DNA of 64,000 nt from NCBI RefSeq assembly GCF_026210795.1, contig NC_089429.1, positions 6,419,001-6,483,000 of the forward strand, in the 5' to 3' direction. This DNA is from Rhizophagus irregularis. Lineage: Eukaryota > Glomeromycota > Glomeromycetes > Glomerales > Glomeraceae. The notes beneath the pieces are model-generated. The model did not search any database and was not told the origin of the DNA. It saw only the letters and a program-made list of their open reading frames with translations. Within the stretch, counting starts at the first letter, position 1. The number at the start of each line of letters is the position of its first letter. Positions 8,351-46,540 of the stretch are shown piece by piece. A program made the translations under genes and the position numbers.

Positions 8351-9313
8351 TTATATATTTAAACAAGCTTCAAATTACCTGAAAATGATAATGTTGAATA
8401 AAAAAAGCAAATATTTGATCTCTTAAAATAGTAAAATTTCTATTTTTCTTTATTCAATTTATTAAAATATGCAGTTTGAAAATATTCCATGGAAACATGA
8501 ATTTCTTTAACATCCTGCATAAATAACAACTTGACATCACATTTATATATCAGCATTTATATATATCAGTAAGTTTTTCATAATCATATCAAAATTATAG
8601 ATTCCATCTAATTCCATAATTTATTCGTCCATTTTTAATAGTTTGATGATTAAAACTTGGCCTTAATTCTTTGTTACAATATATCCTCATATTCTCTGAA
8701 TTTTTCTGTAATATGAAATCTAAAAGGGTATTTAGTTTTTGTCATAAGCATGTTCATATTTTCAATACAGTACTATATAATACGACAGAACGTTGTCCTA
8801 CAAAATTTATTTCATTATATATCATTAAGAAAGAAAGTAGGGCACAATTAGATGAATTACATAGATAATTTAGAACATATTAAAAGATAAAATTTTATCC
8901 CAAAGTTTGAAAGACAAAGTTTGTTGGTTTCAGTCAAAAAACCTTCGTGAAATATTATAATTGATTTATAAATTCGCAATTTAAATATTTGACTCGTACT
9001 ATCAATAATCATAGGTACCATTGAAATAAACTGAAATTATTTGATCTCATACAACTTATAATATAGAGTGATAACATAAGTGATGTAATAGAAATTTGTT
9101 ACTATTAAAATTCGTATGTATATTAGTACGTAATCAACAAAATGACGCATTCCCGAAGCTCCGCTTATTGTAACACAAAATAAAATTTGTGATCGATGCA
9201 CAAAAAAATCATTGCCATTTTTGCATTAGATCAATTTCAAATGAATAAAAGGGGAACGTAATTCTTAACCATTTATTTATAAGAATTTTTTTTCCCCCTT
9301 TTTGAAAAATAAA
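8351..9313. other. Intergenic region upstream of the F-box gene
   Basis: No supported gene. A 65-codon open frame at 8671-8868 has no conserved look. The last 30 bases before the F-box start are T-rich; no distinctive promoter element was recognised. Confidence 0.45.
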
Positions 9314-10738
9314 ATGGAAAAATTAAATATTGATTGCCTTATTCTTATTTTTAAAGAATTATGGACAGATAAAAAATCATTATATTCCTGCCTTTTGGTT
9401 AATAGAGAGTGGTGTCACTTAGTTGTCCCTATTTTATGGAGAAAATATCCATACTTTTTCAGTTGTAAAAAATCAAAAGAAAAATTTTATAATATAATAC
9501 TTTCTTGTCTACCAACTTCTTCAAAACAACTTTTACTTGACAATGATATTAAGTTACCCTTAACGAATCTTCCAAAATCCCTAACATTTAATTATCTCAG
9601 CTTTTGTAAATATCTTAAAGTTGATATTGTAGATAATATTATAAATGTTGTATTTAAAAAAGAAATTTTTAATAAGGCAAAAAAAAGAAATCTTTTAGAA
9701 AAAGAAATTTACAAATTATTCATTAGTCAATGTAAAAATATTAAAGAATTAGAGTGGCAAACTTCTAAACCTCTACCATTATTTTCAGGAGCCCTAACAT
9801 GTTTCCCTCAACTCTATAATCTAAGTATTGATTTATATTCAGTAAATTCCAACAATCTTCGTGAGATGGCAGAGATTTGCAAAGATTTAAACAAATTATG
9901 TGTTTACAATTATTCTCAAAGTGTTCCCGGGTTGATTTCTTTAATTGATGCACAAAGAAATTTAAAAAGTTTTTCATTTAGTTCTCATATTAAGAAAGGA
10001 ATAACATGTGAAGAACTAAGTACAGCATTAACAAGAAAAGGTCGTACAATTAATAATCTTTTTTTACATGGTTCAATTGGGGTTATTTCACATTCATTTT
10101 TAACGTCACTTATCAATCTAAAAGATTTAACAATTTATCATGATTGTGAAAGTTATAAAGGAATTAAAGAATTCCAAAAATATTTAGCAAATTCAGAATT
10201 TCCAGATCTCAACTCACTTGGTATATATGATGATTTTTTATGTTTTAAGGAAATGGCAATGTTAATTGAAAAAACCAAAGGAAATATTTCATATTTCTCT
10301 GTTTATACATCTAATAAATCTGCTGAGGGTACAGGAATGTTAATTAATGCTATTTCTAATTTTTGTCCAAAGATAGAATACCTAACTACATATCTTGGTC
10401 CTAAAGATTTAATTTATGTAAAAGCATTATTAATGAATTGCAAAAATTTATTAAGTTTACATCTTAATAGTTTGAATGAGACTAGCGATATAGGAGATGA
10501 ATTATTAGATAATTTAACAAAATTTTCTCCAAAATCTTTAACTTATGTAACAATTAGTGGGGATTGGAAGTATTCTATTGATGCTTTTAAAAAATTTTTT
10601 GAAAGTTATAGGGAACGAAAATTACTTTGTTTTAATATCGATAATTATATTGGAGAACATTTTACAACAGAACATACAGATGTTGTTAAAAAATACTTTA
10701 ATGAAGAGATAATAGTAAATTCAAATCTTTTATTTTAA
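9314..10738 (+). CDS. F-box domain protein with leucine-rich-repeat-like region
   Basis: Single-exon gene of 474 codons. I use the first ATG at 9314; the frame is open 4 codons further upstream but has no earlier ATG. Residues 1 to about 45 (MEKLNIDCLILIFKEL, then CLLVNREWCHLVVPILWRKY) form an F-box: the helix pattern LxxLxxIF-kEL, a variable loop, then LVNREW and the WRKY-type end that bind Skp1 in an SCF ubiquitin ligase. The rest consists of degenerate LRR-like blocks (for example FPQLYNLSID, LNKLCVYNYS, NLKSFSFSS, CPKIEYLTTYLG, CKNLLSLHLNSLN) that usually recognise substrates. The C-terminus (KFFESYRERKLLCFNID) matches the usual family ending. This family is hugely expanded in Glomeromycotina; the substrate cannot be predicted. 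The gene looks intact, and a broken relative lies just upstream. Confidence 0.85.
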   Translation: MEKLNIDCLILIFKELWTDKKSLYSCLLVNREWCHLVVPILWRKYPYFFSCKKSKEKFYNIILSCLPTSSKQLLLDNDIKLPLTNLPKSLTFNYLSFCKYLKVDIVDNIINVVFKKEIFNKAKKRNLLEKEIYKLFISQCKNIKELEWQTSKPLPLFSGALTCFPQLYNLSIDLYSVNSNNLREMAEICKDLNKLCVYNYSQSVPGLISLIDAQRNLKSFSFSSHIKKGITCEELSTALTRKGRTINNLFLHGSIGVISHSFLTSLINLKDLTIYHDCESYKGIKEFQKYLANSEFPDLNSLGIYDDFLCFKEMAMLIEKTKGNISYFSVYTSNKSAEGTGMLINAISNFCPKIEYLTTYLGPKDLIYVKALLMNCKNLLSLHLNSLNETSDIGDELLDNLTKFSPKSLTYVTISGDWKYSIDAFKKFFESYRERKLLCFNIDNYIGEHFTTEHTDVVKKYFNEEIIVNSNLLF

Positions 10739-16064: not shown

Positions 16065-17181
16065 TCAAAATTTAAAAAAGATCTTATATAAAGTTCTAAT
16101 TCTCAAAAATTCAGTATAAATTTCTAATAAAGTTATATTGAAATTTTCATAATCTTCTAAATTTGCCGAAATTTCTTTAAATTCTTGAGATCGATAAACC
16201 TCCTCAAAATTTATTGCCATAAAATTTAAAACTGGTTTTTTTAAGTCATTATAGTTTGGGACTAAATTAAACATAATTTTTGATACATTTGAGATTGTTA
16301 ATTCGTCTAAAATCCTAGTTTTTGCTCGTTCTCGAAGATCTAATAAAACATATTGATCCGCTAAACGAAATAATTCTATAGCGATAGAATCATCATTATC
16401 TTCATTAGTCCATTGAATTTGATTTGTGTAAAAGTATTTGAGCATGGCAGAAATTGTAATTGGGCTATATGTTGAAATTTGAATCCGATGTTTTATTTGA
16501 CATGTCGAATTATTAAGTGTTGATTCGAACCAATGACCTGATAACATTTTCTCAAAATATTCGGATCTTTTGGAAAGTATTGAACTACATGCATAGAATT
16601 TTTCACCTTGTACATCAAATTCTACGTCAGCCGATTGAAAATTAAATAAATGTTCTTTCCATGCGTCTATAAGATCCTTTGGAATAGGTTCAGGATAATA
16701 TGTTTTGCTTTGATTATATTCAATGTTATCAAAATTAGCTCCAATTATCAATTCTCCATTTTCAAGTGAAGATTTTCTAATTGCATAACGATATCCAGGA
16801 TCTATATTAAAAAAGACATAAATTTAACGATTAGAAAAAGAAAACTAAGTGTGAAAAGAAACACCAAATATTACCATTATCAATAGGGGTACCAGGAGGT
16901 ATAGCAAAGCTTTTACTATAAAGTTCAATGATTTGATTATCATTTCTAATTTCTTTTGCGAATAAATTGAAAGTTAATTTTGAACGTTCTCCCCAAATAA
17001 TTTCATCTTGATTTGCAACTGGCTGTAAATAAAGTCCATAATAGTCATCGTCTTCAAGAAGTATAAATATTCGCCAAAACATATTATTTGTACCAAAAAT
17101 AGGACTATAATAATCTTCTTCTATTTCAAGCGATTTAGGTAAATTTACTTGATAAGTTAATTTTGGAGTTATTTGAGACAT
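16065..17181 (-). CDS. MATH-BTB domain protein (two exons)
   Basis: Minus-strand gene: exon 1 at 17181-16875 (ATG at 17181), a 73 bp GT-AG intron at 16874-16802, exon 2 at 16801-16065; joined length 347 residues. The splice keeps the frame (…TPIDNG then PGYRYAIRKSS…). Residues about 5-125 form a divergent MATH-like domain (FWRIFILLEDDDYYGLYL, LTFNLFAKEIRN). Residues about 155-265 are a BTB domain (SADVEFDVQGEKFYACSSIL, RSEYFEKMLSGHWFES, MLKYFYTNQIQW, LADQYVLLDLRERA). The C-terminal about 80 residues are helical, as in SPOP-type proteins. Such proteins link substrates (MATH side) to Cullin-3 (BTB side). This family is expanded in Glomeromycotina. No frameshift or stop is seen; the last few residues (YKIFFKF) are Phe/Lys-rich, so the true 3' end could involve another intron. 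Confidence 0.85.
16802..16874 (-). other. Intron of the MATH-BTB gene
   Basis: 73 bases with a GTAATA donor and an ATATAG acceptor on the minus strand. Removing it joins the MATH-like and BTB parts in frame; reading through it hits stops. Confidence 0.8.
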
Positions 17182-29440: not shown

Positions 29441-29735
29441 ATCTACAGCTTCATCTTCATTATAAATCATATGAGTATTCGTCTAATTTACTTGACAGCT
29501 TCATCCTCATTATAAATCATATGAGTATTCGTCTAATTTAATTGACGGCTTCATCCTCATTATAAATCATATGAGTATTCGTCTAATTTAATTGACGGCT
29601 TCATCCTCATTATAAATCATATGAGTATTCGTCTAATTAAATTGACGGCTTCATCCTCATTATAAATCATATGAGTATTCGTCTAATTAAATTGACGCTT
29701 TCATCCTCATTATAAATCATATGAGTATTCGCTTA

Positions 29736-29833
29736 CTTTATAAAAAAAATTCTGGAAAAAACTCATTTTTCTAGTTTATATTCCAAAAAAAACTCAGATA
29801 CGTAATCATTTTTCTGAAAAATTTTTTATAGGG
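29736..29833. mobile_element. MITE copy inside the satellite
   Basis: TTTATAAAAAAAATTCTGG at the left pairs with CTGAAAAATTTTTTATAGGG at the right; the interior TTTTTCTAGTTTATATTCC and AAACTCAGATACGTAATCA are family marks shared with 12426-12533. It interrupts the 50 bp array. Confidence 0.6.
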
Positions 29834-30159
29834 TTATTTATGTGTAACACTCCTTTAAATAATAATGATGTATAGTTGTATGGGTAAACATGTAAAAAGA
29901 ATACTTTTGAAATATCTACAGCTTCATCCTCATTATAAATCATATGAGTATTCGTCTAATTTATTTGACGGCCTTCATCCTTATTATAAATCATATGAGT
30001 ATTCGTCTAATTTAATTGACGGCTTCATCCTCATTATAAATCATATGAGTATTCGTCTAATTAAATTGACGGCTTCATCCTCATTATAAATCATATGAGT
30101 ATTCGTCTAATTAAATTGACGGTTTCATCCTCATTATAAATCATATGAGTATTCGCTTA

Positions 30160-30257
30160 CTTTATAAAAAAAATTCTGGAAAAAACTCATTTTTCTAGTT
30201 TATATTCCAAAAAAAACTCAGATACGTAATCATTTTTCTGAAAAATTTTTTATAGGG
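30160..30257. mobile_element. Second MITE copy, duplicated with the satellite
   Basis: Apparently identical to the 29736-29833 copy at an offset of exactly 424 bp, together with its flanks. It therefore arose by segmental duplication and not by a second insertion. Confidence 0.6.
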
Positions 30258-30821
30258 TTATTTATGTGTAACACTCCTTTAAATAATAATGATGTATAGT
30301 TGTATGGGTAAACATGTAAAAAGAATACTTTTGAAATATCTACAGCTTCATCCTCATTATAAATCATATGAGTATTCGTCTAATTTATTTGACGGCCTTC
30401 ATCCTTATTATAAATCATATGAGTATTCGTCTAATTTATTTGACGGCCTTCATCCTCATTATAAATCATATGAGTATTCCGTCCAATTTATTCGACGACT
30501 TCATCCTCATTATAAATCATGAGTATTCCGTCTAATTGTATTTGACGGCTTCATCCTCATTATAAATCATATGAGTATTCGTCATATTTTCTGAAAAGTT
30601 TTTTATAGGGTTACTCCTTTAAATAATAATGTATAGTTGTGCAGGTAGCTGTAAATCATATGAGTATTCGTTTAATTTATTTACTACGTTACTTTCAAAC
30701 GATTAAGAACATTCTTCTACTTTGCTAACATGATGAATACTTCCTCATACTTTCTCGTATGAATCTTCATCAAATCCTCTTCAAATTAAATTCATCATTC
30801 TATTCAAAATAATTTTTTGTA

Positions 30822-40389: not shown

Positions 40390-41092
40390 TAGATCGCTAA
40401 CTAAGGTGTTGTCACATTCGATGAATCGTTTAGTTTTATGATTTTTGGGTGTTTGATAGATTGTCGTTGTTCGTTAAGTGGCGTAGTATCATTAGTTGTT
40501 TCAGTTTCCATTTGAACTGAAGTTGGTGTTTTTGGACGTGTAGTACGGGTTGATTTATCAGAACCTGGTACACTGTCGTCGTCCTTTTCAACATCAACAA
40601 TATCAGTCGTTTGTTTAGCTTCCGATATATGATTCGTTGATAATATATGATAGCATTTCTTTGTTCGTCTTGACGTCCATTTTGATTTGTTAAAATAGAT
40701 TGTGTAATGGTACTTAAATTGTGGACTATTTCACCTAATTTATTGATCATAGATTCTTGATTAATTATGACTTTTTCTTGATTTGTGACGGTTGTAGTCA
40801 ATTCCTTTAGTTTATATTCCATATCTTGGATTCTATTTTGTATCTGACTAATATTATCGTCATGTATGGATACAGTAAGTCCTAAAGTGTTGTATAATTT
40901 TGATCGTAGTATTCATTTTTATCCAGCGGATAATCCCCATTATTCGTTGGATTCTTCTTGGGTTTATTATTTTAAGATGCGTAAAGTGGTTTGTTAACGT
41001 CTTCGTCTAATTGAGGAACTAGATATCCATATATGAAGCGTTCTCCGTTGTTACTATAGGTGTTATTTTTGTGTCCTTGAGGGGGACGGTCG
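40390..41092 (-). pseudogene. LINE ORF1, C-terminal part with coiled coil
   Basis: After the transposon breakpoint the minus strand reads NDRPPQGHKNNTYSNNGERF, IYGYLVPQLDEDVNKPLYAS, one stop, then NNKPKKNPTNNGDYPLDKNE, SIHDDNISQIQNRIQDMEYK and LKELTTTVTNQEKVIINQES. The last 50 or so residues of this run have the hydrophobic spacing of a coiled coil. After a frameshift near 40660 come TTDIVDVEKDDDSVPGSDKS and TTRPKTPTSVQMETETTND, a polar linker. ORF1 proteins of LINEs bind RNA and trimerise through coiled coils. Its N-terminal piece lies across the insertion at 46402-46540. Confidence 0.6.
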
Positions 41093-41096
41093 TTTA

Positions 41097-41215
41097 TGTT
41101 GTGCCCCAAGTTGATGATCTGCCCCAAATCTAAATTTCAATTTGGGGCGATCCAACTTAAAATTTCAAATTGGGGCAATACAATTTTATTGCCCAAATTT
41201 TAAATTGGGGCAAAT
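41097..41215 (+). repeat. Left terminal and subterminal inverted repeats of the Ginger-like element
   Basis: TGTTGTGCCCCAAGTTG is followed by GATCTGCCCCAAATC, AATTTGGGGCGATCCAACTT and further GCCCAAA/TTTGGGC palindromes. The same modules, inverted, end the element at 46271-46397 (for example GGGCAATCCAACTT). Confidence 0.8.
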
Positions 41216-41233
41216 TGAGATATTGGGCCTGTG

Positions 41234-41885
41234 GTGCCCCAAGTTAACTATTGCCCAAATTTTAAATTGGGGTGATAGTCAACTTGGGGCACCACGGGCT
41301 CGATATCTCAATTTGCCCCAATTTAAAATTTGGGCAATAGTTAACTTGGGGCACCACAGACCCAATATCTCAATTTGCCCCAATTTAAAATTTGGGCAAT
41401 AGTTAACTTGGGGCACCATAGTCCCGATATCTCAATTTGCCCCAATTTAAAATCTGGGCAATAGTTAACTTGGGGCACCATAGTCCCGATATCTCAATTT
41501 GCCCCAATTTAAAATCTGGGCAATAGTTAACTTGGGGCACCATAGTCCCGATATCTATATTTGCCCCAATTTAAAATTTGGGCAATAGTTAACTTGGGGC
41601 ACCATAGTCCCGATATCTATATTTGCCCCAATTTAAAATTTGGGCAATAGTTAACTTGGGGCACCATAGTCCCGATATCTATATTTGCCCCAATTTAAAA
41701 TTTGGGCAATAGTTAACTTGGGGCACCATAGTCCCGATATCTATATTTGCCCCAATTTAAAATCTGGGCAATAGTTAACTTGGGGCACCATAGTCCCGAT
41801 ATCTATATTTGCTCCAATTTAAAATTTGGGCAATAGTTAACTTGGGGCACCATAGGCCTGGTATCTATATTTGCCCCAAATTTAA
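41234..41885 (+). repeat. Ten-copy 62 bp subterminal array containing TIR core
   Basis: Unit: AACTTGGGGCACCATAGTCC, CGATATCTATATTTGCCCCA, ATTTAAAATTTGGGCAATAG, TT. Copies of AACTTGGGGCACC start at about 41281, 41344, 41406 and then every 62 bp to 41839. One further copy lies inverted at about 41231. CAACTTGGGGCAC is the inverted TIR core, and GCCCCAATTTAAAATTTGGGC is a near-perfect palindrome. There are no spacers, so this is not a CRISPR. The frame open across part of it is a repeat artefact. Confidence 0.85.
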
Positions 41886-42206
41886 ATTAACGAATGTAGT
41901 AAGACTTTAAGTTAACTATTATTTTTCTATAAAATTAAAATAGAAATAATACTTATTTAAGGTCTTAATTTCACTCTATACATTTATTTATATTGTCGCA
42001 ATTTTTTAATTAATTTTTTTTTAATCATTTAATTATTTAAAATTTGAATCTTTTATTTTATATTTTAGTTGTTAATGTTAATACTCAATATTTTATAAAA
42101 TTTATCTTAAATTTTTGCAATAGAAAACTTTTAAAATTCCAAAATAAACAATTTATAATTATAAAATTAGATCTTTATTATTGTAGATTTATAAAATTTT
42201 TAATTA

Positions 42207-44965
42207 TTATAAAGAAGGATTATGACATGTTTTACCAGGATGACATCTAATATTACAAGACAAATTTAATTTCTTACATGCACATTTCATAGTACTACAA
42301 TTTGTATTAGGACATTTGCATTTAACTGAATTTATATTACTTTGTAATCTAACTGCTTCTGTAACAGTTACTACCTTGTTTGGAATATTTGTTAATTCAG
42401 CCATAGAAGTTAATTCAGTTGATTCCAAACAATTTCCCTTATAGTTTACATTTAATGTTCCCGCAAAACATCCCAAATTGTAAAAGCCATTAGATTTAAC
42501 TTGTAAAATCTTACAAGGTAAATGACTGCGTCCTAATTTTCCTTTATCTGCTTTTGGAATTTTAAGATTAACAATATCACCAACCTTAAATAGATCTTTC
42601 TTTTTAACTTTTTTCTCCATTAATATTTTCATGTCATCTCTATATTTTTTGTTATTCATTTTTGCATCTTCACGTATATAATCATGAGATGTTGAAGCTT
42701 CAATTGTTTCAGACTAAAAAAATAAAAATAAATTAATAAATATATTTTTTAAAAAATAAAAATAAATAATTAAATATAATAATTAAAATAGAAATTATTA
42801 CAACTCACATTTTGTTCATTATCTAGTTCATCAAGCCACTTGTTGAATTTTTTTCCCAAATATTTAATAAAATATTGTCAAATGAATTTGTTTCGCGCAT
42901 TGCTTTTAAATCACGTAAACATCCTAGGATGTCTCTTTTAATTACGCCTAATCTTAATTTATTACTATATCCAAACATGCCTTCCCATGATGCATTAATC
43001 TCTTCCCAAGTGATATTTTTAATTTGTGGAGGTTTTAATTGAAATAATGTACTTGAATCAACATTAGATACTTGCTTAGGTTTAGGTTGCTTTATTAATA
43101 CAAATTCAAAAAAGAGTTTACTAAAATAAATTAAAAATTTAATCAAGAATATAACTTTTTTGTTTACCTTCTTAATATTTTTATTTTTGTTAAATTGCTT
43201 CTAAGATCGTTAAAATCTTCAGAATTTTCATCAAAATCATCAGAATCTTCATTAAGATTATTAGCATGATCTTCATTAAAATCATCAGAATCTTTGTTAG
43301 AATCATCAGAATTTTCATTAAAATTATTAGCATCTTCGTTAAAATCATCAGAATCTTCATTAGAATCATCAGTATCTTTATTAAGATCATCAGAATCTTC
43401 ATTAAAATTATCGGAATCTTTGTTAAGATCATTATTGTAGTGATTATAATCTGATTCTTTATTTTGATTATTGTTAACAGCAAAAGTTACTTGCTTTTGT
43501 TTACCTTTGTTTTTAGAATTTTTATTCAATGACTGCATAAAATTATAAACAAATTTTTAATATATTGAAATAATTTGATTTAAAATATTGTGATTAAATA
43601 AATATATTACGGTTAACTACCTTTGTATTTCTACTTTTACTCTGATGTTTATCATGAATAGAATTACTATTATTATCTTCATTTTCGTCATTTTCCTATG
43701 TTATATATTGTAATTTTTTAAAAAAAATTATTTTATTATAAACAAATTTAAAGATTTTTTTATTTATACTTACTTCTTCAAAGTCAAGTGAAGTATCTTC
43801 TTGTTCTACATTAATATTTTCTAATAATTGCTCTTCATCTATACAATTTTCTTCTTTAAATAGATGTTCCATCCATGCTATATCACTGTGTGGATGCATA
43901 CCAAATACTATTTCATATGGAGTTTTATTGGTAGCTCGGCATATAGTATTATTCATAGTAAAAATAACATAATTTAAGCACAAAGTCCAATTTATTGAAT
44001 TATTTTGTTCCATCCACATTCCAATTTTTTTTTCTAAAATAGAATTTGCTCTTTCTATTAAGCCTTGTGATTGTGGATGCCTAGGTCTACCATTTACCAA
44101 TTTTAAACCAGGCCATAAGTCTACTAGATTTTTAATTATTTGTGCAGTAAATTCTTTGCCATTATCACTTTGCAAAATAATTGGAGGTCCAAATTGACAA
44201 AAAATTTCATATAATATCCCTGCAATAGCTGCGGGTTCCTTAGAAGTTAAGGGTTTTGCCCATGAATAACGGGAAAAATGATCTCTTACATGTAAGATAT
44301 ATTTGAAATCATTGTCAGAATACTGACGTAAATCAACTAAATCCATCTAAATATTATAAAAAAATATAGCAAATTAAACAGGAGGTAAAGTAATCAAACA
44401 GAAGCTAAAAATCAAACATTAAAATTACCTGTACTCTCGAAAGAAATCTTTTCGCAACTATAGGCCTTGCTGCTAAGGTGGATTTGGACATAGTTCTGCG
44501 TGGTACACATATTTCACAATGATTCACAAACTCCTCTATAATCTTCTTTTTCACCCCATACCATTTGCTTCTTAATTTTCTATACAATTTTTTTTGTCCA
44601 CAATGAACATTTTGTACATGCTCCAAACAAATTGTTTTATACATTTCTTCTAAGACTAATATTGGTAAAAAATCAGCAGATTTACCTTCTTTATCTAAAG
44701 CTGTTTTTGTTCTTTTATTATTATTTTTACATACAACAGAATCACCTCCAGTATTTAATAAAATGAAATTCTTTCTACACCAATAACGAAAGTCTGCATC
44801 CCGTAATGTAGAAACATGATCTAAAAGAACTGTTTTTATTTCATCATAAAGGTGTCTATTTATAAATTGCTTTTCAGATGTTTTAGATTTACTGTTTTGT
44901 ATACATTTATCAATAATTTTATTAAAAGTATCTTTACTAATAAAAGAAAATTCTTCTGTTTCCAT
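42207..44965 (-). CDS. Ginger-like transposase (DDE integrase), six exons, one frameshift
   Basis: Exons on the minus strand: 44965-44429, 44346-43774, 43695-43621, 43532-43168, 43120-42809, 42713-42207; introns are GT-AG and 48-95 bp except about 88 bp at 43620-43533, all keeping phase. Exon 1 has an HHCC zinc finger (LEHVQNVHCGQKKLYRKL, VNHCEICVPRRT). Exon 2 is the integrase core: MDLVDLRQ (first Asp), ILQSDNGKEF (second Asp) and QGLIERAN (Glu), with 36 residues between Asp and Glu. Exon 4 is an Asp/Asn/Ser-rich octapeptide repeat. The last exon has FKVGDIVNLKIPKADKGKLG and a Cys-rich end (CKCPNTNCSTMKCACKK, CNIRCHPGKTC), the type seen in KRBA2-like/Ginger proteins. Total length is about 789 residues. 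Exon 5 needs one extra A in the run at about 42850-42856 to reach its donor, so the copy is frameshifted or has a homopolymer error. Confidence 0.8.
43210..43430 (-). repeat. 24 bp coding minisatellite in transposase exon 4
   Basis: The minus strand repeats octapeptides such as DSDDFNED, DSDDLNKD, DTDDSNED and NSDDSNKD about nine times; the plus strand shows GAATCTTCATTAAAATCATC-type units. It encodes an acidic linker between integrase core and C-terminal region. Frames on other strands here are shadows. Confidence 0.75.
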
Positions 44966-45226
44966 GATAAAAAATTTTTTTATAAAATTTAGGGTGGAGA
45001 GACACGAAAAAAAGGATTGATAACAAAAGAAACGACAAGTTGGAGTTAACTGAAGTATAATGCTTTTATTGAATAAACGTAGGATTATTGTTTTATAACC
45101 AAAACAATAAAAGTGATAACTTAAAAGAATTCAAGGGAAAACTAATTAATGCTTAATACTCTTATGATTTCTGAACACTTTTTCACTATTCTGACACTAC
45201 TTCTATCAGTGAGTTGGCAGAAGGTA

Positions 45227-45748
45227 TAGGGATGCCAAAAGTTCGGTTATAACCGATCATAACCGGTTTTTACCGGTTCGGTTATCGGTTCGGTTTCAGT
45301 CCAAGACCGACCGGTTAACCGTCAGTTTTATATATAAAAAAAACCGATCAAAAAACCGATCGGTTAATTGTAAATTTTAATATATTCCGGAAAAAAAAAA
45401 TGATTTTGTTTATTGAGAATACCATTAAAAACTATTGTTTTAGTGTTTTTATGTATAATATTCTCATTTTTGAAATTATCGAATTTACGCGTTGATCACG
45501 TGATTTTTCGTTTCTCTGAAAAATCACAACATCAGCGTTATTGTTGTAAAAAATTACATCAATTCAAAGAATATTATTCAAAAAGTTATAATTGATACTT
45601 TATGGCATTATTTTATTCGATTTTGCGGTATTTTTGTAATCGGTTTTGTAGTTCAGTTTTATCGGTCGGTTTTGCGGTCGGTTCGGTTTTGGTTGAAAAC
45701 TGCAGTTTTAAAACCGAAACCGAACCGAACCGACCGTTGGCATCCCTA
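45227..45748. mobile_element. 522 bp hAT-type MITE nested in the Ginger-like element
   Basis: TAGGGATGCCAA (45227-45238) is perfectly inverted as TTGGCATCCCTA (45737-45748), and AGAAGGTA flanks both ends (45219-45226 and 45749-45756), a perfect 8 bp duplication. Both subterminal regions are full of CGGTT/AACCG direct and inverted repeats (for example ACCGGTTCGGTTATCGGTT). There is no coding capacity. It lies between the transposase start and the right TIR. Confidence 0.92.
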
Positions 45749-45756
45749 AGAAGGTA

Positions 45757-46270
45757 TATTTATATCTATTTTTATCTAACTGACATCTCTTTTTCTGATA
45801 TTAAGGGCGAAATCTAATCTATTGATTTCCTATTGACATCATATATCTATCTAGATTGTTAGTGTTTCATTATAATATATCTATGTAATTACAATGGTGA
45901 CAGTTTTATTGTAAGCCACATTTTAATAGAACACAAATGATAAATTTGAACGGTTAATTACTATTGAGCTAATTATTCTACAATGAATCTTAATAAAAAT
46001 CGTATACATATAAACAATACAAATACAGAAAATTAATAATATAAACAATAATAAAAATGAATATACATAATAATACTATATGTGTAAATTAATCAAATAT
46101 AATCAATATTATCTATTAGGTTAATCTGTCGACTGGTTGTATATCGACTTGTAACATCGGAATCATGTGTACAAAATTTTGCGTAACAGTTTCACAAACA
46201 AATTAACAAATTGAAAGCCAATGATTTTTGATGATCATATAAGTCACATGACCCAAAATCAAAATTTCGG
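45757..46270. other. Non-coding right arm of the Ginger-like element
   Basis: AT-rich sequence between the nested MITE and the right subterminal repeats; no gene seen. Confidence 0.5.
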
Positions 46271-46401
46271 GCAGTAAAATGTCTGTGCCCCATTTCGAAA
46301 TTTCAAGTTGGATTGCCCAAAATTGAAATTTCAATTTCGGGCAAAATGGATCTGCCCCAATTTTAAATCGGGGCAGATCGCAACTTGGGGCACAACATAT
46401 T

Positions 46402-46540
46402 CGTCCGATTGAGGATTAGCGGATAAAATTCTGAAGTTAATTGTGCCATGAGAGATACTCCAAATGTCATGTTCGATGATCTCGTTAATAGATTTAGCAA
46501 AAAATGTCATACGGATTTGAAAATATTTGCAAAACAGCAA
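46402..46540 (-). pseudogene. LINE ORF1, N-terminal piece across the Ginger insertion
   Basis: The minus strand reads MTFFAKSINEIIEHDIWSIS, HGTINFRILSANPQSDE and then runs into the transposon end. The left-flank reading NDRPPQGHKNN (41092 downward) continues it in frame if the element and a 4-base duplication are removed. The upstream frame starts near 46560 without a clear ATG beyond that in MTFFAK. Confidence 0.55.

Follow-up and report, generated by a model that had tools for sequence, protein, structure and literature searches.

A damaged, very probably Ginger2/TDD-type DNA transposon and three sister families in the genome of Rhizophagus irregularis

The stretch of 64,000 nucleotides analysed here, called the window, is C1:6419001-6483000 of the genome of the arbuscular mycorrhizal fungus Rhizophagus irregularis (contig NC_089429.1). 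Positions 41097..46397 of the window, with the gene on the minus strand, very probably hold an autonomous Ginger2/TDD-type DNA transposon of the cut-and-paste class, present here as a damaged copy. Its family, designated family A, is best filed as a real transposon family of this type in an arbuscular mycorrhizal fungus. A Ginger-like DNA transposon had been proposed from the sequence alone (the original prediction), and the present analysis supported this assignment and narrowed it to Ginger2/TDD over Ginger1.

The element is delimited by exact 17-bp inverted ends and by boundaries that are equal in its paired sister copies. The 17-bp end, TGTTGTGCCCCAAGTTG, occurs exactly at 41097-41113 on the plus strand and at 46381-46397 on the minus strand, giving terminal inverted repeats (TIRs) downstream and upstream of the gene, respectively, and a span of 5,301 bp, as expected from the proposed matching ends 5.3 kb apart. 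None of 100 shuffles of the window yielded a match to these inverted ends with two mismatches tolerated. Beyond the exact 17 bp, the TIR of family A continues into approximately 90 bp of imperfect, offset complementarity. The flanks at 41087-41096 and 46398-46407 are near inverted repeats of one another (CGGTCGTTTA / CGGACGAATA). A 27-nt inverted repeat at the flanks had pointed to an extended TIR or to a target that is palindromic, a reading dropped because the sister copies begin at TGTTGTG, and a 2-bp TA duplication, which fits the window, was dropped because the sister copies have 4 bp. A second genomic copy of the insertion site was not found with 600 bp per flank searched; the right flank gave four partial matches, all past base 400.

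A genome search for further copies, as suggested in the original prediction, covered 146,748,485 bases in 32 contigs and gave 35 exact matches to the 17-bp end. All of these and five one-mismatch matches were fetched (40 end loci). Twelve of the 40 ends lay in copies with gene or array pieces and 24 in miniature inverted-repeat transposable elements (MITEs) with a second end; for the other four (L015, L029, L033 and L039) no second end was found. Six family A copies with gene pieces were compared, namely the window copy and those on C16, C20, C31, C21 and C28. The copy at C16:4567256 is 99.35% identical to the window copy over 2,463 bp and 97.9% over 1,408 bp on the array side, that at C20:1008152 is 99.06% identical over 4,134 bp, and that at C31:1244859 is 99.6% identical over 2,031 bp, with exons 5-6 and the 3' end not found in the fetched 5.5 kb. 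The C21 and C28 copies are degraded, with 89-96% identity in their main pieces. A seventh, partial place (C16:3676288) turned up in the exon 6 search only; in that search, all 29 candidates were scored, giving 26 matches across all related families, some of them pieces of one copy. Copies ending at different boundaries, named in the original prediction as a sign against it, were not seen: five paired copies share one boundary, and four of the five carry a 4-bp duplication (TATA, GTAT, TAGT and GTTA, the TATA sitting in a longer TA run). The MITE of ~161 bp has the ends and the duplication length of family A without the transposase. Its 24 copies measure 151-166 bp and differ from their majority sequence by 0.6-5.0% substitutions, and 21 of them have 4-bp duplications; L026 and L040, which have flanks in common, are probably one duplicated insertion. 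Four false rows arising from the tandem array (L002, L016, L024 and L030) were excluded from the count.

Three further families (B, C and D) share 49-57% core identity, TGTTGT ends and the gene layout with family A, and TGTTG stands at the ends in all four families. Family B (C7:2097072; ends TGTTGTAACTGAA) is 6.4 kb long and family C (C14, C16:1238968 and C17:22414; ends TGTTGTGCGTCAAG) 2.7 kb, and family D (C12, C8, C2 and C3; ends TGTTGTGCCTCAGATCG) measures ~4.5-5.0 kb in C12, C8 and C2. The TIR lengths by an ungapped measure are 101, 126 and 347 bp for B, C and D, respectively; no TIR was found in the fetched stretch of the C3 copy (L049) or of the degraded L052. Each of the three end patterns also occurs in its own paired short elements. 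In a sample of 36 chosen paired elements of B-D, one of which is a full-length C copy, 4-bp duplications were present in 34. At the C and D sites the duplication is TATA in 20 of 29 and the target fits RTATAY in 19 of 29, and for family B five of seven sites were usable, two of them with near-identical flanks. The target of family A is palindromic, with the form T-A-(4-bp duplication)-T-A: T at -2 (hence A at +2) occurs in 40 of 48 half-sites, a purine (R) precedes the duplication in 23 of 24 sites, a pyrimidine (Y) follows it in 21 of 24, and both flanks conform in 20 of 24.

The transposase gene is read on the minus strand from six exons separated by five introns of 82, 78, 88, 47 and 95 nt, all GT...AG. 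Exon 1 (44429..44965) holds the start codon, N-terminal helices and an H2C2 zinc finger (~44507-44620), and exon 2 (43774..44346) the DDE integrase core with D2, D61 and E98. Exon 3 (43621..43695) was placed by frame and splice sites only, exon 4 (43168..43532) by a repeat scan, splice sites and frame, and exon 5 (42809..43120) by copy comparison, splice sites and frame. Exon 6 (42207..42713) ends with the stop codon and contains a probable SH3/Tudor-like barrel and a Cys-rich, CXC-like tail (~42219-42320). Within exon 4, about ten 21-bp repeats (43210-43432) encode an acidic stretch rich in Asp, Asn and Ser; there are 10.5 copies in the window and C20 and 9.3 in C28. The joined frame stays open for 615 of its 789 codons, and another frame runs uninterrupted from nt 1793 to the stop. 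The only coding break of the window copy is a single frame change where the two frames overlap; the overlap holds an A-run near 42850, in exon 5, whose length is private to the window copy among the five copies holding that place. The gene model goes beyond chance, since the exon 1/2 junction and the intron 1 sites recur across families. When exons 1, 2 and 6 were compared by tblastn with seven loci of the three other families, exon 1 similarity stopped at SRVQ in all seven and exon 2 similarity began at a shared [MI]DL, with MYL in one D copy. A base-level check of intron 1 in one copy per family (window, C7, C14 and C12) placed GT and AG at a shared position and phase; the intron measures 82, 85, 63 and 73 nt, respectively. 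The exon 6 acceptor is apparently shared with C7 alone, as judged by eye, and introns 2-4 are supported within family A alone. The six-exon structure with introns in phase and the single poly-A frameshift, both part of the original prediction, were borne out.

The predicted HHCC finger, 36-residue spacing and Cys-rich C-terminus were likewise recovered. The finger residues H116/H121/C150/C153 are invariant across five aligned rows, and D61 and E98, separated by 36 residues, across seven. In Pfam, rve matched with E 1.2e-08 and passed its cut-off, and Integrase_H2C2 matched with E 4.8e-05, slightly under its cut-off. All 60 matches listed of the 130 found in a PDB profile search with the core were integrases or Pol polyproteins, the best being the prototype foamy virus (PFV) integrase (E 3.2e-11). 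Between families, the ratio of nonsynonymous to synonymous divergence (dN/dS) of the core, estimated with NG86, was 0.08-0.27 at a saturated dS of 1.5-2.7. Eight Cys residues of the tail are conserved in all four families. The Pfam TCR/CXC profile matched the tail in two of six members (best E 0.021), and the window exon stayed under the curated cut-off, so this similarity is suggestive only. The predicted structures of exons 1 and 6 each had a mean pLDDT (predicted local distance difference test) of 72, with ~53 for the Cys tail. In Foldseek, Tudor/PWWP domains ranked first for the exon 6 model (best E 8.3e-03, none reaching 0.001), consistent with a probable SH3/Tudor-like barrel. A PDB profile search with exon 6 matched only six E1 glycoprotein sequences (E 0.09-0.2), a result taken as chance.

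The gene-upstream region of the window copy is interrupted by a foreign insertion of 522 bp (45227..45748, minus strand), which is included in the 5,301-bp length and was not mentioned in the original prediction. This sequence has the TIR TAGGGATGCCAA, lies between 8-bp duplications (TACCTTCT) at 45749..45756 on its upstream side and 45219..45226 on its downstream side, and is absent from the three sister copies holding this place (C16, C20 and C31). Its ends and 8-bp duplication fit a hAT-type MITE, by features that we take to be those of the hAT family. A genome search in which 40 of 91 candidates were scored gave 65 match rows, at least 35 of which span all 522 bases at 77-100% identity; eight, including that of the window, reach at least 99%, and the MITE thus appears to be young too. 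It ends 261 bp before the start codon of the gene and may affect expression.

The copies, ~99% alike, fit a recent spread of family A. The claim of recent activity in the original prediction therefore holds for the family, whose best pieces in the window are 99.1-99.6% identical to three other copies. The argument from the window copy itself is weak: the hAT-like MITE upstream of its gene and the length of its A-run are private to this copy, which also lacks a target-site duplication. Present activity is unproven, as every one of the six copies examined carries a coding lesion. Apart from the window copy, exon 1 is short by 11 nt in C16, C20 has an exon 2 stop and an exon 4 indel, C31 has an exon 2 stop and is without exons 5-6, and parts of exons are missing from C21 and C28; single-base homopolymer differences may be assembly errors, and the assembly that appears to match is built from Nanopore reads, with a QV of 36.27 (PMC10234402). 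In the C16 copy, a repeat-rich nested sequence of ~3 kb (L041:2201-5157) lies within intron 5, and the neighbouring exons are uncut.

The interval from the gene to the 3' end also holds a subterminal array (41251..41886, minus strand) absent from the original prediction, in which a 62-bp unit, repeated 10.2 times, includes the end motif together with a near-palindrome of that motif. In family B, a 62-bp unit is repeated 13.6 times at the corresponding location. In both, the end motif of the same family occupies positions 1-12 of the unit, without mismatch in A and with one in B. The unit also holds a palindrome based on the motif and centred at position 30 or 31, which spans 18-42 in A, with one mismatch, and 20-42 in B, where it is perfect. 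The letters of the two units agree at 27 of 62 positions in the best rotation, a value reached by 386 of 2000 shuffles. Sequence homology of the units was accordingly rejected as no better than shuffles, and a shared layout alone is claimed, resting on two families (A and B, whose cores are 57% identical); families C and D carry other repeats, of 28 bp and ~110 bp. Because ends and array changed in matched fashion, a binding function is suggested, and it is possible, though doubtful, that the arrays are transposase-binding sites whose layout was kept while their letters were rewritten with the ends, with the CXC-like tail as candidate reader. The equal array period can also be explained by passive inheritance. 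If the binding reading is true, families A and B would be a natural record of an integrase-type transposase gaining new end specificity.

An integrase surviving from a Gypsy long terminal repeat (LTR) retrotransposon between unrelated inverted repeats would also account for a core of this kind, in a genome rich in Gypsy-type integrases. Thirteen Gypsy-type loci, fetched from more distant integrase matches, show 25-33% core identity. Their reverse transcriptase (RT) active-site motif is present in 11 of 13, and W-x-GPY/F in 8 of 13 open reading frames (ORFs), the remaining five ORFs being of 142-341 aa; these features, unlike the integrase core, were not found in common with the element. When the A-D loci (L041-L053) were scanned for an RT motif, one match appeared, in L053 and outside the element, and none of the ORFs listed around the window copy is an RT frame. 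GPY/F was not seen by eye in the family A exons or the aligned B-D exons, the middle B-D exons not having been read. In a tree of 17 rows, families A-D were split from the 13 Gypsy-type integrases with support of 100/100, although long branches meet at the split and all rows come from this genome without external reference. The integrase was thus placed outside the sampled Gypsy-type integrases, contrary to a position inside LTR retrotransposons, which the original prediction regarded as evidence against itself. As independent copies also have identical ends and 4-bp duplications and one layout is common to four families, a Gypsy remnant is extremely improbable, and a DNA transposon is the preferred reading.

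The ends and boundaries of this transposon, its gene layout and relatives, the duplications of sister copies and the preferred target can be read directly from the DNA; the mechanism is proposed as the most likely one. The six-exon gene, if spliced as predicted, would encode an integrase-like transposase that recognises both the TGTTGTG ends and the repeats of the subterminal motif and pairs the ends, recognition perhaps involving the Cys-rich tail and the arrays. Cleavage would occur at TGT...ACA, with excision and most likely a cut-and-paste route. The ends would then be joined, at a stagger of 4 bp, to a palindromic target rich in A and T, giving rise to the 4-bp duplication, and the ~161-bp MITEs with matching ends may be mobilised as well.

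The available parts of the literature describe Ginger elements as rare in fungi, with just one in Umbelopsidales (PMC7928374) and identification in no more than a handful of species (PMC5982816). For R. irregularis, some two thirds of repeat content was unclassifiable before curation, and the 2024 repeat curation used a Ginger profile, Ginger not being among the superfamilies named in the accessible portion of its text (PMC11075540). In the portions at hand of the R. irregularis literature, the word occurred as an author name (PMC8647823) and as that profile name (PMC11075540), and a prior report of such an element may still exist. Against this background, the present genome has four related families, each with short elements bearing its ends. 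Closely related families with different ends and a common gene plan offer direct tests of end recognition by integrase-type transposases and bear on how DNA transposons relate to the integrases of retroviruses. Elsewhere in the window, a tandem array at 29448-30583 consists of a 50-bp unit inside a 424-bp higher-order unit (GCTTCATCCTCATTATAAATC...), and open frames at 9269-10738 (489 aa) and 16065-16823 (252 aa) resemble, by eye, F-box/LRR-type and BTB-type host genes, respectively.

Ginger2/TDD is preferred over Ginger1 because RTATAY targets occur in the sister families, no GPY/F was seen, no OTU or Ulp1 domain was found in the exons scanned and no RT motif was found. Several observations nevertheless weigh against this assignment. 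The family A duplication is TATA in just 3 of 24 sites (versus C and D, Fisher P 6e-5). The window copy has no 4-bp duplication and atypical flanks (AATA/TAAA); of the Ginger/TDD features cited in the original prediction, it has the TGTNR ends, and the 4-bp duplications are those of sister copies. All six copies examined in this assembly carry a coding lesion, and the tree contains no TDD-4, Ginger1, Ginger2 or KRBA2 sequence. A search for external relatives gave 75 viral-contig and 83 genome-contig pattern matches, none of which was confirmed, and records close to this genome were possibly left out. A separate, unnamed integrase-type lineage near Ginger2 would be marked by the CXC-like tail with its eight Cys in all four families, the introns, of which intron 1 is conserved, and the subterminal arrays, and no Cys-rich tail is mentioned for Ginger2 in the accessible portion of PMC2836005. 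The ends, the duplication length, the C/D target and the absence of GPY/F from the exons read all equal those of Ginger2, and a comparable tail is presumably present in KRBA2-like proteins, making such a lineage unlikely and Ginger2/TDD the favoured assignment.

Compared with known systems, KRBA2-like proteins presumably resemble the transposase in core wording and Cys-rich tail. KRBA2 differs in being a mammalian host gene with a KRAB domain, and is said to derive from Ginger2 (PMC13359818, citing Llorens 2012, in the part available). Ginger1 and Ginger2 were defined in PMC2836005, whose accessible portion gives TGTNR ends, 4-bp duplications and introns for Ginger1 as well and states its excision route as unknown. 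Together with the integrase core, these likenesses would allow the element to belong to Ginger1, the introns being a possible one. The duplications of families A-D are AT-rich and include neither CCGG nor CCGT/ACGG, no GPY/F was seen in those exons of family A that were read, and Pfam detected no OTU or Ulp1 in a scan covering exons 1, 2 and 6, so that membership of Ginger1 is very unlikely. From Ginger2/TDD, the element differs in its five introns and 62-bp subterminal array, in a Cys-rich tail that the accessible Ginger2 description does not mention, in an exact TIR of only 17 bp in family A against ~50-180 bp, and in a family A target that is looser within the 4 bp. It resembles Ginger2/TDD in its TGTNR ends, 4-bp duplications (5 bp in TDD-4/5), H2C2 finger and DDE core, in the lack of a visible GPY/F, in short non-autonomous relatives such as Ginger2-1N1_NV (252 bp), and, through sister families C and D, in the RTATAY target reported for Ginger2 (PMC2836005, in the same portion).

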